Below are positions 10,325 to 41,578 of a DNA stretch of 64,000 bases, one piece after another. Origin of the DNA: Arenicellales bacterium (lineage in GTDB: Bacteria; Pseudomonadota; Gammaproteobacteria; Arenicellales; JAHEKD01); the NCBI GenBank assembly GCA_028284225.1, contig JANQSD010000015.1, forward strand, positions 1-64,000. Direction: 5' to 3'. Both the position numbers and the translations under genes were made by a program. Under the pieces are notes generated by a model. That model was not told the origin of the DNA and did no database searches. It saw nothing but the letters and a program-made list of their open reading frames with translations. How positions within the stretch are numbered: position 1 is the first letter of the stretch; every line of letters begins with the position of its first letter.

Positions 10325-11298
10325 TGTGCTTGTTGTTGAACCATGTCGTCAGCCATCGCAAGTGCAGTCATTAGGCTGGTTGTTTCGATTTGCCCGGTAG
10401 CGGCCAAGGATAAGGCTGTGCCGTGATCAACGGAAGTTCGAATAATCGGCAATCCCAGGGTGATATTTACAGTCTTACCAAACCCCAGTGCTTTGACCAC
10501 AGGTAAACCCTGGTCGTGGTACATCGCTATCACTGTATCAACCTGATCCAGAATATTAGGGGTAAAGGCTGTATCAGCGGGCAGAGGGCCGATTAAATCA
10601 AAACCTTGAGCCTTTAATTGATCGACAATAGGAGTGATGATTTCTATTTCCTCAGTGCCCAAATGGCCGCTTTCTCCAGCGTGCGGATTGAGCCCACAGA
10701 TTGCAATTTTCGGATTTGGAATGCCGAACTTTTGAATTAAGTCAGAGTGGGTGATTCGGGTGACCAACTCAACTTTCTCGTGAGTAATCGTTTTGGCTAC
10801 ATCGGATAAGGGTAGATGAGTTGTTACCAGTGCAACTCTTAGCATTTCATTAGCCAGCATCATCACTGGTAATTCGGCTCCCGTTTTTTCAGCCAGAAAT
10901 TCTGTATGACCTGAAAACCGGATACCGGCATCATTAATAATACTTTTCTGGATCGGGCCGGTCACCAAGGCGTCAAACTGCCCGGTCAGACAACCTTGTG
11001 TTGCAATTTCCAGTGTTTCAAGCACGTAGGCCGCATTCTTATTATCTAGCTGACCGGGATTTACATGTTTTAAGCCGGTAACAGGGACGATTTGAAGTTC
11101 GCCGGGATTGGATATTGAACCGTCAAATTCTTTAATGTCCAATGCAAGCCCGAGCAGGTTGGCGCGTTCTTGTAAGGCCCCCGGATCTACAATTGCAACC
11201 AAACAATACGCGTGTTGTTGCTGTGCGATCATAATAGCCAGATCAAGGCCGATTCCTGCCGGTTCGCCCGGCGTCAATGCCAATATGCTGGGTTTCAT
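10321..11298 (-). CDS. pdxA: 4-hydroxythreonine-4-phosphate dehydrogenase
   Basis: PdxA oxidises 4-phosphohydroxy-L-threonine with NAD in the DXP-dependent pathway to pyridoxal phosphate. It has 325 residues. The N-terminal TPGEPAGIG, the metal-ligand HTEFLAE block, GLNPHAGE, and AMYHDQGLPVVK with TSVDHGTALSLA are all diagnostic. The usual upstream surA-lptD pair is absent; a DUF945 gene and nudF take that place. Confidence 0.96.
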   Translation of the reverse strand: MKPSILALTPGEPAGIGLDLAIMIAQQQHAYCLVAIVDPGALQERANLLGLALDIKEFDGSISNPGELQIVPVTGLKHVNPGQLDNKNAAYVLETLEIATQGCLTGQFDALVTGPIQKSIINDAGIRFSGHTEFLAEKTGAELPVMMLANEMLRVALVTTHLPLSDVAKTITHEKVELVTRITHSDLIQKFGIPNPKIAICGLNPHAGESGHLGTEEIEIITPIVDQLKAQGFDLIGPLPADTAFTPNILDQVDTVIAMYHDQGLPVVKALGFGKTVNITLGLPIIRTSVDHGTALSLAATGQIETTSLMTALAMADDMVQQQAQ

Positions 11299-11304
11299 CT
11301 GTAT

Positions 11305-12540
11305 TTAGTGATTTACGCTCAATTTACTGTTTTCGAAACCAAGGTTTGCATAATACGATTGATGTTTCTCGATTAACAGGCCTTTTTCCAGCATTGAGTC
11401 CAGAAATTCAATCAAATCGGATTGATTCAATTTAGTAACCAGCACTTTGGGCAGTTCAGCCTCCAGCTTTAAATTTAGATTCTCCAATAACGAAAATGGG
11501 TTCAGTTCAGTGTCGGCTGTGCTCAATAACTGGCTGGAAAAATCAATTTTAAGCATCTGCTGATCAGATTGAGCATTTAAAGCCAGGGTGATTTCAGGTT
11601 GATTTTTAGAAGTTAGTTTTAATAAATCTGAAAAGTGTTTCAGTAGAACCAACCATTCATTATTGTTAATAGATTCAGAAATCGAATCATAGTTTTCTGA
11701 CATGAATTGAACCAGCTGCTGATCCAGATTCATGACCTGAAATTCTGCGGTAATATCGGACAGGGATGCTTGATTAAGATCTAATAGATCTGTGTCCAGT
11801 ACAGATTCAAAATGATAAACGTCGTTATGTTTATTTAATTTACTGGCTAAATTGATTCTACTAGCCCGATAGTGATCAGTGATCAAGCGGCTTGAAAGTG
11901 CTTCGGCGCTGAAATCAATTTTTTCAGGAAATACTAACGCTGGGTTTAAATCAATCTCAAGTTCAGGCTTTACCAGATAAGTGGTTTGCCAGGAGTCTTT
12001 GAGTTCCAGTTGGTTGGTTTTGAGCGAGGCATTGATTGAGCCATTAGCACTAATCCGGCTTTTTATATCAGCCAGGTCGGCAAATACTTGGGCCTGCGAA
12101 ATAGAAAAGTCCAGACCGGGATGTTGAATGTGGGGATGGCTTTGTCCCAGATAATTTATCCATGTCGTTGCTGTGCCGGGTTGATCACTGATTTTTAAAC
12201 CTGTTTGAGGACTTATAAGTTCGAATTGTGTATCGATGTTGTACCAGGCGAAAGATTTACTCGGATTTTTAAAAAGATTTGACCAAATTATCGGGCCATG
12301 CTTGATTTGATTATCGGTTTTAATGATCAGGTTTTGCTGATTTAGAAGTAGTTCAAGCTGTGCAGTTGAATTTAACCAGCCATGATTAAAATCGAGTTGG
12401 TTGATTTTGATATCGGTATCGAAATTGCTAATAAAATGATGCTGTAAATAGTAACTGGCCGCAAAAGATAGAATAAACGGTGTTGTCACCAAGGCCAGTA
12501 AGCTACCAATAACTATTTTTCGCACGCTACTTAAAATCAA
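11305..12540 (-). CDS. DUF945 (YdgA-like) membrane-anchored protein
   Basis: A 411-residue protein with an N-terminal hydrophobic anchor (IVIGSLLALVTTPFILSFAA) and a large periplasmic domain. The segment NHGWLNSTAQLELL, followed about 30 residues later by KHGPIIWSNL, matches the DUF945/YdgA pattern. The function of that family is not established. The annotated start is TTG at 12540, with no clear ribosome site; GTG at 12525 would give a tidier membrane anchor. It is six bases from both neighbours in the operon. Confidence 0.72.
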   Translation of the reverse strand: MILSSVRKIVIGSLLALVTTPFILSFAASYYLQHHFISNFDTDIKINQLDFNHGWLNSTAQLELLLNQQNLIIKTDNQIKHGPIIWSNLFKNPSKSFAWYNIDTQFELISPQTGLKISDQPGTATTWINYLGQSHPHIQHPGLDFSISQAQVFADLADIKSRISANGSINASLKTNQLELKDSWQTTYLVKPELEIDLNPALVFPEKIDFSAEALSSRLITDHYRASRINLASKLNKHNDVYHFESVLDTDLLDLNQASLSDITAEFQVMNLDQQLVQFMSENYDSISESINNNEWLVLLKHFSDLLKLTSKNQPEITLALNAQSDQQMLKIDFSSQLLSTADTELNPFSLLENLNLKLEAELPKVLVTKLNQSDLIEFLDSMLEKGLLIEKHQSYYANLGFENSKLSVNH

Positions 12541-31158: not shown

Positions 31159-34100
31159 TCAGTTTTCAGATTTTACCAGTTTAATTAGCCAATTGTGTTC
31201 GTCAAGTGTTTTTTCAATTTTGTAACCTTTTGACAAATTTTCTGCGCTAACAAGGTCATTAGTCAGAGTCTCTTCAATAATGTACGATTCAAACTCTTCA
31301 ACGACCTGTTTAATAGTATCACTGCCGTCAATCGCCAGATTAATACGGTCTGAAATTTCAAGCCCAGCCTGTTTGCGAGCGTCTTGAATGGTGCGCACTA
31401 ATTCGCGGGCCAAACCTTCCCGAATTAAAGTTTCGTCGAGTGCTGTATCCAAACCTACTAGAAAGCCATTTGATTCAGCACATGAATAACCTTGCGCGGA
31501 CTCGGTTTCAACTAACACATCTTCCGGTGAGAAGCTTAGACTCTGGTTGCCTAGGCTAAGTTCAAAGTTTTCTTTCTTAGCAACCGCCGCCGCAATCCCA
31601 CGGCTATCAGCTTCTAATAACGCCTGTTTGATAGCGGGAATTTGTCTACCATACAATTTGCCGATTCTGGGTAAATTAGGTTTGATTCGATATTGCACTA
31701 ACGACGCATCAGCGGGAAGAAATTCAATCGATTTAACGTTTAATTCTTCCATTAATTGCTGGCGGTGTTTTTCTGCCGCTTGTTGGGCAAGCGCATTGGG
31801 AACACGCAATAACAGCCGCGACAGAGGCTGGCGAACTTTAACTTTACTTTGTTCACGTGCGGCGCGGCCCAGGTAAATAATACGTTGTACGTCGTCGAAT
31901 TCTTCAACTAACAGATCGTTTTTCCATGCCGGGTTAAGTTCCGGCCAGACACACAGGTGTACGCTTTCAGGTGCATTCGCATCAATGCTGCATGTCAGGT
32001 TTTGATAAATACGTTCTGCCAAAAACGGCATGAAGGGTGCAATCAGTTTTTGAATAGCATTTAAGCATTCATACAAAGTTAAATAGGCTGATTGCTTATC
32101 GTCACTGGCTTTTGCTTTCCAAAATCGCCGGCGGTTGCGCCGGATATACCAATTACTGAGTTGATCAACAAAACTTTCAATGGCTTCACCGGCAGTTTTG
32201 GCGTCGTAGGCATCCATTGCTTCGGTTGTCACCGAAATGGTTTTATGAAGTAGCGCTAACGCCCATCGGTCAATCTCCGGGCGCTGATCAACAGCAACAT
32301 TTTTATTCAAGTCAATATTATCGAGCTTGGCATACATAATGAAAAATGCGTAAGTGTTCCATAATGTATTAATAAAATTACTTGCCACATCGGAAACAAT
32401 ATCAATGGAAATGCGTTTTTGACCTTCAGGTGCGATTCTGGCCAAAAAATACCAACGTAATGGATCAGCACCGACTGTATCGAATACATCATAAGGGTTG
32501 ATAATATTACCCAGCGATTTGGACATTTTTTTGCCATGTTGATCGACAATATGGCTTAAGCAAATCACATTTTTGTAGGCAACACTGTCCGAAACCAGTG
32601 AGCCGATTGCGTGCAGTGTGTAAAACCAGCCACGGGTCTGGTCGATGGCCTCACAAATATAGTCTGCAGGAAAGTGTTGTTCGAATTCTTCTTGGTTTTC
32701 AAATGGATAATGCCATTGGGCATACGACATAGCACCTGAGTCAAACCAACAATCAATAACCTCAGGTACACGTCTGTAAGTTTTGCCGTCTTTCTCAAAG
32801 GTGATTTCATCGATAGCAGGGCGGTGAAAATCGATATCACTGATGGGTCTGCCGCAAAGTTCTTCAAGCTCCGCGACTGAACCGATGCAGATCATGTCAC
32901 CCTCACCATCTGTCCAAACCGGTAATGGTGTGCCCCAGAAACGTTCGCGTGACAATGCCCAATCGATATTATTTTCCAGCCAATTACCAAATCGGCCTTG
33001 CTTAATGGTTTCAGGCACCCAGTTAATGGTGTTATTCAATTCAACCATACGGTCTTTGATTGCCGTGGTACGGATATACCAGGCATTTTTGGCGTAATAA
33101 ATGATTGGGTCGCCAGTACGCCATCCGTGTGGATAATTGTGAGTGTATTGCTCGTTTTTAAATAACACGCCCTTTTCCTGTAAGACGTCAATCAAAATGG
33201 GATCGGCATCTTTAAAGAATTTTCCAGCTACCGGCATTACCTCCGGTTTGAAGTAACCGTCTAAACCAACGCCATGAACAATCGGAATACCGTTTTCCAG
33301 TGCAATCGGCATCTCTTCGGCGCCGTAAGCCGGCGCGCAATGAACAATACCGGTTCCATCTTCTGTAGTGACAAAGTCAGCGGCATATACTCTGAAGGTG
33401 ACTTGTGGATGCTCATCGGCTAAATAATCAAGCGGGCGCTGATAGGTTTTGCCGACTAATTCATTGCCCTTGATTGTTTTGGTAATTTCGTAAGTTTGCT
33501 CACCTAAGACCTGCTCAAGTAAGTCTTTAGCTAAAATAACCGTTTCATCTTCAAGTTTGGCGTAGACATAGTCAATATCCGGATGTACAACTAAAAATTG
33601 ATGAGAGGGAATCGTCCATGGAGTCGTCGTCCAAGCCAGGAATGAGACAGTCGGGTCGTCTGATAATCGAAAGCGAACAGTAATGGCTGGATCGACAATT
33701 TCTTTATAGCCCTGGGCGAGTTCATGTGAGGAAAGCGTTGCACCGATCCTTGGGTCATATGGTACAACTTTATAACCCTGATAAATCAATCCTTTGTCCC
33801 AAATCTGCTTGAGTAACGCCCAGACTGATTCGATATAGTCATTATCCAGCGTGTAATAGGCCTGTTCGAGGTTTACCCAATATCCCATGCGCTGAGTCAT
33901 TTTCTCCCACTCACCGATATAGCGCATAACGGAATCGCGACAACGACGGGTAAATTCGCCCACCCCAACTTCCTCTTCAATGAGCTTTTTATCGAAAATC
34001 TTAAGCTCTTTTTCGATTTGATGTTCAACCGGCAAGCCATGCGTATCCCAGCCTGCTTTTCTAGGTGCGTAGTAACCACGCATGGTTTTGTAGCGTGGAT

Positions 34101-34305
34101 AAACATCCTTAAATGTCCGCGCCAGAACATGATGAATGCCAGGTTGACCGTTAGCTGTTGGCGGACCTTCGCAGAATGAAAAGCGCGGTTTACCTTCGCT
34201 TTGTTTTATTGATTGTTCGAAAATATTATTCCTATGCCAAAAATCGAGCACATCCTGTTCAATTTGTGGGCCGTTATAGCGGCTTTCTACGTCTTTAAAT
34301 CCCAT
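31159..34305 (-). CDS. ileS: Isoleucyl-tRNA synthetase, type 2, GxHH variant
   Basis: A class Ia synthetase of 1048 residues. The length, the start MGFKDVESRYNGPQIEQDVL and AGWDTHGLPVEHQIEKEL place it in the eukaryotic-like type 2 group rather than the ~940-residue type 1 of most proteobacteria. KMSKS is intact at residues 593-597. The HxGH signature is replaced by G56-I57-H58-H59 (codons 34140-34129), an exchange of the first and third positions. In type 2 enzymes this GxHH form has been linked to very high mupirocin resistance. The usual ribF and lspA neighbours are absent. A T-box with an Ile specifier lies upstream of the preceding gst gene. Whether a type 1 copy exists elsewhere cannot be told from this window. 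Confidence 0.97.
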   Translation of the reverse strand: MGFKDVESRYNGPQIEQDVLDFWHRNNIFEQSIKQSEGKPRFSFCEGPPTANGQPGIHHVLARTFKDVYPRYKTMRGYYAPRKAGWDTHGLPVEHQIEKELKIFDKKLIEEEVGVGEFTRRCRDSVMRYIGEWEKMTQRMGYWVNLEQAYYTLDNDYIESVWALLKQIWDKGLIYQGYKVVPYDPRIGATLSSHELAQGYKEIVDPAITVRFRLSDDPTVSFLAWTTTPWTIPSHQFLVVHPDIDYVYAKLEDETVILAKDLLEQVLGEQTYEITKTIKGNELVGKTYQRPLDYLADEHPQVTFRVYAADFVTTEDGTGIVHCAPAYGAEEMPIALENGIPIVHGVGLDGYFKPEVMPVAGKFFKDADPILIDVLQEKGVLFKNEQYTHNYPHGWRTGDPIIYYAKNAWYIRTTAIKDRMVELNNTINWVPETIKQGRFGNWLENNIDWALSRERFWGTPLPVWTDGEGDMICIGSVAELEELCGRPISDIDFHRPAIDEITFEKDGKTYRRVPEVIDCWFDSGAMSYAQWHYPFENQEEFEQHFPADYICEAIDQTRGWFYTLHAIGSLVSDSVAYKNVICLSHIVDQHGKKMSKSLGNIINPYDVFDTVGADPLRWYFLARIAPEGQKRISIDIVSDVASNFINTLWNTYAFFIMYAKLDNIDLNKNVAVDQRPEIDRWALALLHKTISVTTEAMDAYDAKTAGEAIESFVDQLSNWYIRRNRRRFWKAKASDDKQSAYLTLYECLNAIQKLIAPFMPFLAERIYQNLTCSIDANAPESVHLCVWPELNPAWKNDLLVEEFDDVQRIIYLGRAAREQSKVKVRQPLSRLLLRVPNALAQQAAEKHRQQLMEELNVKSIEFLPADASLVQYRIKPNLPRIGKLYGRQIPAIKQALLEADSRGIAAAVAKKENFELSLGNQSLSFSPEDVLVETESAQGYSCAESNGFLVGLDTALDETLIREGLARELVRTIQDARKQAGLEISDRINLAIDGSDTIKQVVEEFESYIIEETLTNDLVSAENLSKGYKIEKTLDEHNWLIKLVKSEN

Positions 34306-34318
34306 AACTAATACCTAA

Positions 34319-34963
34319 CTACTTTACAACTTCGGATAATTCAATCACATGCAGTTCTTCGGCTGCGGCTGAAAACCATTGCTTCATATGTTTATCATTC
34401 AAAACATGCTGCATATATTTGGAGCATGTTTGATTTAATTCAACACCATAAGTGTTGAATCGGCTCACGATAGGTGCGTACATGGCATCGGCAATACTGA
34501 AATCTCCGAATAGCCATGGCCCTGGGTGATTTTCCTCCAGGCAGTTTTGCCAAATGGATTGAATACGGTCTATTTCTTGCTGAATTGGAGCAGTGATGGA
34601 AACATGTCGTCCCACTGCACGGCAATTCATAGGCATATTTTCTCTAATTAGACTAAAGCCAGAATGCATTTCATGGCTAATCGATCTGGCTAATGCTCTT
34701 GATTGCGAATCTTGTGGCCACATCAATGGACTGACTTCCGCTATATATTCACAAATTGCTAGTGAATCCCAGATAGTCAATGCATCACTGATCAATACCG
34801 GTACTTTCCCGGAAGGCGAATAGGGTGCAAGCGCTTGTTGATAGCCATCTACATACAGCGGTATGACTAGCTCTTCAAATTCTATTTTTGCTTTTTTCAT
34901 TACCAACCAGGGTCGCAGCGACCAGGACGAGTAATTTTTGTTGCCTAAAATTAGTTTATACAT
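34319..34963 (-). CDS. Glutathione S-transferase family protein
   Basis: A 214-residue GST. The N-terminal thioredoxin fold starts MYKLILGNKNYSSWSLRPWL (probable catalytic Ser in SSWS), with the glutathione-binding GKVPVLI and DSLAICEYIAE segments. An all-helical C-terminal domain contains WLFGDFSIADAMYAP. I start it at ATG 34963, eight bases past a GGTG. A longer frame to 35026 would begin inside the T-box terminator and is not credible. It is the first gene after the T-box and 13 bases before ileS. Confidence 0.9.
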   Translation of the reverse strand: MYKLILGNKNYSSWSLRPWLVMKKAKIEFEELVIPLYVDGYQQALAPYSPSGKVPVLISDALTIWDSLAICEYIAEVSPLMWPQDSQSRALARSISHEMHSGFSLIRENMPMNCRAVGRHVSITAPIQQEIDRIQSIWQNCLEENHPGPWLFGDFSIADAMYAPIVSRFNTYGVELNQTCSKYMQHVLNDKHMKQWFSAAAEELHVIELSEVVK

Positions 34964-34975
34964 AGTAGTTTCACC

Positions 34976-35011
34976 AATAAAAATCCCGGATGTTGTAACG
35001 CAACATCCGGG
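34976..35011 (-). terminator. T-box regulated intrinsic terminator
   Basis: CCCGGATGTTG and CAACATCCGGG arms (11 pairs, five-base loop), followed on the minus strand by ATTTTTATT. The 5' arm shares CCCGG with the antiterminator, which is what makes the two folds exclusive. It lies 22 bases before the gst start. Confidence 0.93.
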
Positions 35012-35245
35012 ACGTTTGATTCTCAACGCGGTACCACCCGGTTTTACTGATTTTTCACAAAACCAGCCTTAATCACTGCGATAACAGCGATAATCCTGTT
35101 TCGGGGATTAGCCGTCTTAACTTACTTGAAAAAACTCGTTCAGCCAGCAGCTCCAGGGTGATTTTCAGCAGGGTTTGCTTCAGGGCTTGCACCATCCCCT
35201 GATCGCTAAAAGCAAATAAACCGACTTACTCGTCCCTTTCAACGC
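34977..35245 (-). promoter_or_regulatory. Class I T-box riboswitch, isoleucine (AUC) specifier
   Basis: Read on the minus strand, every hallmark appears in order. GAAAGGGACGAGTAAG opens stem I (35240 on). The AGCGA bulge (35206-35202) and GATGGTGCAAG distal loop sit within CAGGG/CCCTG arms. Specifier ATC is at 35162-35160 in the context GAAAATCACC, then GGAGCTGCTGGCTGAAC. AAGTAAGTTAAGACGG and TTATCGC mark the linker and stem III. The T-box CCGGGTGGTACCGCG is at 35041-35027. Its CCGGG can pair with CCCGG at 35011-35007 as antiterminator, or that CCCGG joins the terminator. The TGGT bulge matches an A discriminator plus CCA, as in tRNA-Ile. Uncharged tRNA-Ile should therefore turn on gst-ileS. 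Confidence 0.96.
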
Positions 35246-40260: not shown

Positions 40261-40289
40261 TTGCTTAAGCCCCATATGTTGTGTATTCT
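40261..40289 (+). promoter_or_regulatory. Sigma-70 promoter of the cobalamin riboswitch
   Basis: TTGCTT and TATTCT separated by 17 bases, with the start expected near 40296, right at the beginning of the riboswitch. DNA between the SDR stop (40081) and here is AT-rich and holds nothing else I recognise. Confidence 0.6.
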
Positions 40290-40295
40290 CGCTGC

Positions 40296-40436
40296 TGGTG
40301 TTAATGGTTAAGGGAAATCGGTTAAATGCCGATGCTGCCCCCGCAACTGTAAATGGTGAGTTTATTTCAGTACCACTGGGCAACCGGGAAGGTGAAATAA
40401 GCGTTCTAGCCGTGAGCCAGGAGACCTGCCGTTAGC
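40296..40436 (+). promoter_or_regulatory. Cobalamin riboswitch
   Basis: The conserved order of the adenosylcobalamin-type aptamer is readable: AAGGGAAATCGG, TGCTGCCCCCGCAACTGTAA, CCACTGGGCAACCGGGAAGG, and the B12 box GAGCCAGGAGACCTGCC at 40414-40430. A hairpin CCGAAC/GTTTCGG at 40448-40465 follows and could act in a translation-type expression platform. The regulated gene is the unknown small protein at 40542, not a familiar btuB or cob gene. Confidence 0.95.
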
Positions 40437-40476
40437 GAATGTTATGACCGAACGGGGTGTTTCGGCGGGAACCAAC

Positions 40477-40575
40477 ATGACATTGCTCTTCAAAAATTTG
40501 TTCAGTTTCCGTCCTGCCCTGGCATTAAATGGAGATAAACCATGCCAGCACGACAAAATAATGTTTCTAATCTAG
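40477..40575 (+). other. Possible 32-codon leader ORF behind the riboswitch
   Basis: An ATG eight bases after GGCGGG opens a 32-codon frame (MTLLFKNLFSFRPALALNGD onward) that overlaps the start of the 114-residue gene in another frame. It could be a leader peptide coupling riboswitch state to translation, or chance. Confidence is low. Confidence 0.25.
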
Positions 40576-40886
40576 TTGTATTTCCAGGCTGCGATCCCAA
40601 AGCCAAGCTAAGCCATATATTTTTAAACGACCAAATCAACAATAAAGCCGAATTGGTGATATTGAATTGGTTGGTTGCCTTGCCGAGTGCAATTGATCCG
40701 GCATTTGCAGCTCGATCGGTTTTGATAAAACTTGAAGCGGAAAAACAATCGCTCAGTAAAGATCAACGTAACTTACTCACGTTGCTGCGTGAAATTTCTA
40801 ATCATCCTCGCCAAAAGTTGCTCAAGTTGGCGGATAGAAATGATCGAGACAAGCGCCGCAGAAACTGGTTGAGGCGTACGCAGTAG
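40542..40886 (+). CDS. Small protein of unknown function under B12 riboswitch control
   Basis: I do not recognise this 114-residue protein. ATG 40542 has GGAG seven bases upstream. The N-terminal half is mixed (NLVVFPGCDPKAKLSHIFL, with a single Cys). The middle is hydrophobic and helical (ELVILNWLVALPSAIDPAFA). The C-terminal third is strongly basic (RDKRRRNWLRR at the end), suggesting a nucleic-acid or acidic-partner contact. There is no signal peptide and no clear membrane span. Control by cobalamin is inferred from the leader. Confidence 0.7.
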   Translation: MPARQNNVSNLVVFPGCDPKAKLSHIFLNDQINNKAELVILNWLVALPSAIDPAFAARSVLIKLEAEKQSLSKDQRNLLTLLREISNHPRQKLLKLADRNDRDKRRRNWLRRTQ

Positions 40887-40897
40887 AAAACATTCTT

Positions 40898-41578
40898 CTA
40901 TGGTTTGGTTTTTTCACTGTTAAATACCAGATTACAAATAATCAGTGCCGCCAATGCACCGATGAGTTGTGCAATGATAAAGCCAGCTATATTTGCCGGT
41001 GCAATACCGGCAAATGTATCTGAAAAACCGCGGGCAATAGTGACTGCGGGATTAGCAAACGATGTGGATGCAGTAAACCAGTATGCCGCTGTGATATATA
41101 ACCCGACCAGCCAGGGGATTGCATTCGGCGCTGAATGAAGACCGCCAAGTATGGCTAGCAAAAGCCCAAAAGTGGCAATGGATTCGGCAAACCATTGTCC
41201 GGTGCCTGTGCGGATAGTGGTTGATGCTTGTAAAAGCACTTCCTCAAACATGATGTGTGTTGAAAGCACGCCCAGAATGCCGGCGATTATCTGTACGGCA
41301 ATGTAAATCACTGCAAGCTGCAAGGATAATTCTTTTTTTAACCAGAACACCATGGTTACGGCAGGATTAAAATGTGCTCCCGAAATCGGTCCGAATATAG
41401 TAATAATGACAACCAATATTGCACCTGTCGGAATAGTATTGCACAACAATGCTAAAGCAATAGAGTCGCCGGATAATCGCTGTGCCATAATACCGGAGCC
41501 AACTACAGTGGCTAATAGCAAAGCAGTGCCAAGTGCCTCAGCGGTGAGTTTTTGCAAAGTTGAATAGGAGTTCATCAA
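40898..41578 (-). CDS. MIP family channel (aquaporin/glycerol facilitator-like)
   Basis: A 226-residue membrane channel with six spans and both half-helix motifs, in GAHFNPAVTMVFW near residue 67 and TSFANPAVTIARGFSD near 180. It is distinct from AqpZ and closer to the solute-conducting MIP group seen near stress or arsenic genes; the substrate is unproven. It is divergent from oxyR with 67 bases between, so OxyR control is plausible. It converges on the B12-controlled gene. Confidence 0.87.
   Translation of the reverse strand: MMNSYSTLQKLTAEALGTALLLATVVGSGIMAQRLSGDSIALALLCNTIPTGAILVVIITIFGPISGAHFNPAVTMVFWLKKELSLQLAVIYIAVQIIAGILGVLSTHIMFEEVLLQASTTIRTGTGQWFAESIATFGLLLAILGGLHSAPNAIPWLVGLYITAAYWFTASTSFANPAVTIARGFSDTFAGIAPANIAGFIIAQLIGALAALIICNLVFNSEKTKP

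Follow-up and report, generated by a model that had tools for sequence, protein, structure and literature searches.

Few RNA switches are understood as well as cobalamin riboswitches, whose targets form a small number of familiar groups; binding of cobalamin to this riboswitch class switches the downstream gene off, either through a block of translation or through Rho. The regulons under their control comprise cobalamin biosynthesis, B12 transport, cobalt transport, and B12-independent isozymes (PMC3766115), and in the class concerned here a hairpin with a G-rich loop located 3′ of the aptamer kisses the L5 loop (PMC9600662). In addition, an early metagenome survey came across a pair of unknown proteins, similar to each other, encoded behind B12 elements (PMC2211319). 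In the DNA analysed here, a 64,000-nucleotide stretch from an Arenicellales bacterium (hereafter the window), a riboswitch of this kind precedes a gene for a 114-aa protein, and the locus is composed of the following features:

40261 to 40289, plus strand: promoter-like pair TTGCTT-17-TATTCT, seen in the sequence, with a similar pair in a congener
40279 to 40447, plus strand: cobalamin riboswitch aptamer RF00174, cmscan 101.9 bits
40448 to 40465, plus strand: P13-L13 hairpin CCGAACGGGGTGTTTCGG, seen in the sequence and identical in the congener
40531 to 40534, plus strand: Shine-Dalgarno-like GGAG, seen in the sequence and kept in the congener
40542 to 40886, plus strand: 114-aa small helical protein of an unnamed family (motif W-L-x-x-L-P...AA), supported by the open reading frame, homologues, and codon-level selection

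The riboswitch itself is ordinary, and it is the target gene, unnamed in Pfam and NCBIfam, that differs from the described systems. RF00174 matches at 40279-40447 (+) with 101.9 bits, where the gathering score is 31.5, and with an E-value of 2.4e-24, and the model is covered from position 1 to 189, in line with the preliminary description, which had called the element a well-formed B12 riboswitch. As is known for RF00174 members with an L5-L13 kissing loop, there is a full aptamer with the conserved core and a G-rich 3′ hairpin; the L5 loop contains CCCCC at 40338-40342, and the GGGG of L13 is complementary to the CCCC of L5, making a kissing-loop pairing possible at the level of sequence. A G-rich hairpin lies directly 3′ of the aptamer in all family members that have the riboswitch, that of genome G297 being the least regular. 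Unlike in the class as described, the hairpin in the window stands about 75 nt ahead of the start codon, so that a connection with the ribosome site is not readily seen, and 94 nt separate the end of the aptamer from the ATG. The terminator scan of the window flagged no terminator-like site at 40448-40541, and because no intrinsic terminator lies between the aptamer and the start codon, control would probably be translational or Rho-assisted. Judging from the riboswitch class, abundant cobalamin would bind the aptamer, the L5-L13 kissing loop would form, and expression of the 114-aa protein would be turned off; when B12 is scarce, the protein would be expected to be made.

The promoter that had been assigned to the riboswitch exists as written, with TTGCTT at 40261-40266 and TATTCT at 40284-40289 of the window, but it agrees with the consensus at about 7 of 12 positions, was not flagged by the promoter consensus scan, and its −10 element TATTCT shares positions with the 5′ strand of P1 as aligned by Rfam. 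The pair can nevertheless be regarded as a plausible candidate promoter, because a similar one, TTGCTA-17-TATGCT, is kept at the same position in the congener.

The open reading frame extends from an ATG at 40542 to a stop at 40886, and the start codon can be taken as fixed because an in-frame TAA lies immediately upstream of the ATG and the GGAG shortly before it. The gene is present as a single copy in the source genome; its product is soluble by composition, and its sequence gives no sign of a membrane segment or a metal-binding cluster. No known family of B12 transport or synthesis had been recognised in the protein, and the family searches agree: Pfam gave no match (the best, BatA, has an E-value of 0.62, below the cut-off), nor did NCBIfam, and a search of the PDB by sequence returned nothing significant. 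Compared to the described regulon targets (PMC3766115), the RNA control is of the same kind, whereas the protein has no family match and shows the features of none of the four categories. A missed or frameshifted known gene was also considered and is excluded; the congener homologue is of nearly the same length, and no member of the family matches a known one.

The next gene downstream, for an MIP/aquaporin (40898-41578, −), is convergent, so the opposite-strand neighbour of the preliminary description is confirmed, and its statement that the protein is the only target stands for the window, where the target is a dedicated one. This does not necessarily apply everywhere, since an ArsR-type gene follows on the same strand in the congener in place of the aquaporin. 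Likewise, the basic C-terminal tail that had been pointed out is real in the window protein and the congener, whereas other members show it weakly or not at all. We hold it highly probable that the 114-aa gene is a dedicated cobalamin-riboswitch target.

The congener, the second genome of the genus (G001, contig JAHEKD010000252.1), encodes a 112-aa homologue 55% identical to the window protein, and its gene is directly preceded by a riboswitch that scores 94.5 bits. The genes upstream are identical in kind at the two loci, an epimerase being the neighbour on that side, and the promoter-like site, riboswitch, hairpin, GGAG, 94-nt distance to the ATG, and gene are all kept. The leader is conserved in blocks, with 27 identical bases in a row over the L13 hairpin (GTTATGACCGAACGGGGTGTTTCGGCG) between the window and the congener. 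At the codon level, silent changes per site exceed replacement changes in every comparison, so the family genes are translated and the 114-aa protein is, as judged from these alignments, under purifying selection. An incidental open reading frame was ruled out by the same excess of silent changes.

A profile of the two sequences from this genus detected no additional member among 109 genomes belonging to the same order, and a single one in a sample of the class (G364, E = 3.2e-8), relatives of which occur in 16 of the 48 genomes of its own order. All of these homologues that were inspected (L014-L029) are divergent to obgE, most of them placed in the rpmA-obgE gap, and no riboswitch stands beside them in the DNA fetched around those inspected. 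Many members of this obgE-linked subfamily, which occupies the rpmA-obgE gap wherever rpmA is in view, carry long basic C-terminal extensions. The next profile, combining the obgE-type members with the window group, yielded two more members (G159 and G168), both with RF00174 immediately upstream. For the order of G159, a profile that included G159 and G297 and left out the G401 and G519 proteins found a member in all four genomes searched, and the genes of G401, G519, and G297 each have a riboswitch directly upstream. Thus, the riboswitch is directly upstream in seven of seven member genomes outside the obgE-linked order. This link is not due to ascertainment, because four of the linked genes (G159, G168, G401, and G519; loci L032, L033, L185, and L186), all with RF00174 upstream, were found by protein profile alone; the gene of G297 (L046/L184) has RF00174 upstream likewise. 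Under random placement, with two to five riboswitches per genome, the chance of such adjacency would be about 1e-3 per gene.

The riboswitch-gene pair occurs in at least three orders of Gammaproteobacteria and in four neighbourhoods: an epimerase with an aquaporin or ArsR; RHH_4/methyltransferase; BLUF/M28 peptidase; and, in G168, threonine dehydratase/GFA. In G297 the neighbours are BLUF/M28 peptidase, against RHH_4/methyltransferase in its three congeners, and the riboswitch is kept regardless. The preliminary description had named conservation of the pair as a check and homologues lacking the riboswitch in unrelated contexts as a refutation; conservation is seen across three orders and four gene contexts, and homologues without the riboswitch do exist, but in one order and divergent to obgE, which is half of what the refutation described. 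Because of these homologues the family is not strictly B12-bound, and they caution against the label "cobalamin protein."

Across the 369 genomes of the final class sample, clear members are confined to the few lineages named above, and the family is patchy. When about 145 regions downstream of riboswitches were surveyed with a family profile, no members beyond those known came up, and none were found in the plasmids, phages, and viral contigs searched. The last class search also gave weak extra hits (L194-L206), of which the ones examined proved to be unrelated proteins or frames with stops, with no riboswitch at the loci scanned; two other weak hits with internal stops, L006 (G004) and L013 (G451), were taken as chance. 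Two observations of the class survey deserve a separate mention: its strongest riboswitch (L034, G302; 131.7 bits) is not directly followed by any convincing gene within the fetched stretch, and contig 31 of G136 carries two cobalamin riboswitches back to back on opposite strands, about 100 nt apart (10999-11231, −; 11333-11520, +).

Homology among the subgroups was assessed with independently built profiles and E-values scaled to 100000 proteins. The obgE-type profile matches the window protein with an E-value of 1.1e-14 and the G159 protein with 1.7e-4, and the profile of the G159 genus matches the window protein with 9.3e-5; reciprocal profile E-values are between 1e-14 and 1e-3 for most pairs of subgroups, some single members being weaker, and hhalign probabilities between subgroups are 94-99%. 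What the subgroups share is a core of two helices joined by a loop: the first carries (hydrophobic)-x-x-W-L-x-x-L-P and the second AA-x-x-(V/L)-L, and W, L, P, and one A never vary across the main profile alignments. From these profile comparisons we conclude that the subgroups form one unnamed W-LP-AA small-protein family. No description of such a family was found in the open-access literature, subscription journals being mostly outside the scope of the search, and the unknown proteins of the metagenome survey (PMC2211319), likened to it by description only, may or may not belong here.

Very likely, then, the pair is a real, uncharacterised part of the B12-shortage response in these bacteria, and it is its regulation, and that only, which points to a cobalamin-related function of the protein. 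Since the protein is small, soluble, and predicted to be helical, has no enzyme or membrane features, is encoded alone, and sits in varying neighbourhoods, it would most likely act in trans, adapting a protein or RNA partner to scarcity of B12, and these properties would suit an adaptor or regulator more than an enzyme or transporter subunit tied to an operon. The whole statement, of a one-gene riboswitch unit whose protein acts in trans under B12 shortage, is on balance probable, with most of the weight on its first part; that the protein would be produced at low B12 and serve as an adaptor or regulator is a tentative assignment. Against the statement stand the 16 of 48 genomes with obgE-linked homologues and no riboswitch, which may mean that the activity of the protein is not about B12 as such, the patchy occurrence of the family, and the basic tail, which would suggest nucleic-acid binding and is not conserved. 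A conserved small-protein target outside the known groups would imply a B12-linked factor that is absent from current regulon descriptions.

A general role unrelated to B12, with the riboswitch acquired once or several times to tune the level of the protein, is not very likely. In its favour, the obgE-linked homologues have no riboswitch and share with the window protein the N-terminal FPxCDP motif, which is common only to the window genus and the obgE group; against it speaks a riboswitch in every one of the seven members outside that order, across four contexts. It is unlikely, too, that the protein assists in acquiring B12 or cobalt or in assembling B12, for instance by partnering a transporter or enzyme in a chaperone-like way. 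Known cobalamin regulons are mostly made of biosynthesis, B12 transport, cobalt transport, and isozyme genes (PMC3766115), which would favour an accessory, and the source genome has three cobalamin riboswitches in total, the second preceding a BtuB-like receptor beside CobU and the third an AztAB-like ABC metal transporter beside BluB and a CobB-type gene. However, the family gene never stands beside B12 or cobalt genes in the contexts seen, and its product shows neither an apparent membrane segment or metal-binding cluster nor a match to a known family.

A bolder reading takes the family for a new class of B12-starvation protein, a small stand-alone helical module maintained as a riboswitch-gene cassette in several orders, whose direct target would be either a protein that binds cobalamin or some process that depends on B12, and which might represent a cobalamin cap in detached form; this seems to us distinctly doubtful. 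The narrower form, a stand-alone cobalamin-cap-like four-helix bundle that would cover or load cobalamin on a partner B12-binding domain, is given only a slim chance. The structure models, built from two sequences only and therefore poor, are all-helical and of low confidence (mean pLDDT 66 for the window protein and 57 for the congener), and Foldseek with the window model returned nothing significant (best E 1.1). In a second-look alignment of the window model, B12-domain entries stand near the top of the ranking, namely photocobilin (8j2x; Z 5.3, 69 residues, rmsd 3.4), the MetH cobalamin fragment 663-742 (8ssd; Z 5.0, 69 residues, rmsd 3.0), AppA SCHIC (4heh; Z 5.0, 71 residues, rmsd 4.0), and a MerR-family B12 domain (8jbs; Z 4.1, 70 residues, rmsd 3.5), and AppA SCHIC recurs with the congener model (Z 3.1-3.4); unrelated helical bundles score about the same, and helical bundles at such Z are often chance. 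Like the helical cap (B12-binding_2) of MetH, CarH-like proteins, and photocobilin, the window protein may be a four-helix bundle of similar size, but it has no sequence support for this and no Rossmann partner in the gene. The PF02607 (B12-binding_2) profile matches no member scanned, hhalign against the E. coli MetH cap scores no better than a shuffled sequence, and the Wx9EH motif of the CarH adenosylcobalamin cap (PMC8156234) is absent, W43 being followed by P53-A54 at +10/+11. The modelled resemblance to the helical cap is therefore a weak lead and not evidence. Finally, the RNA itself as the product, a riboswitch-controlled small RNA in which the open reading frame is incidental, has hardly any chance, as the single-gene unit and long leader that would suit it are outweighed by protein-level homology across large distances and the excess of silent changes, by which it is largely refuted.

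Two further loci may be recorded. The AztAB/ZnuCB-like metal ABC transporter behind a cobalamin riboswitch (L004, 549-1307 and 2-577; G000 contig 10) is a candidate cobalt rather than zinc transporter. Elsewhere in the window, a strong T-box leader (RF00230, 35251-35005, −; 115.8 bits against a gathering score of 93), which contains both a GGTGGTACCGCG-type element and a stem resembling a terminator, precedes a glutathione-transferase-like gene (34319-35026, −) and a gene for a 1048-aa IleRS (31159-34305, −), which also reaches sub-threshold scores with the MupA/MupB models. Gammaproteobacteria do not usually have T-boxes, and this one was possibly acquired together with the synthetase.
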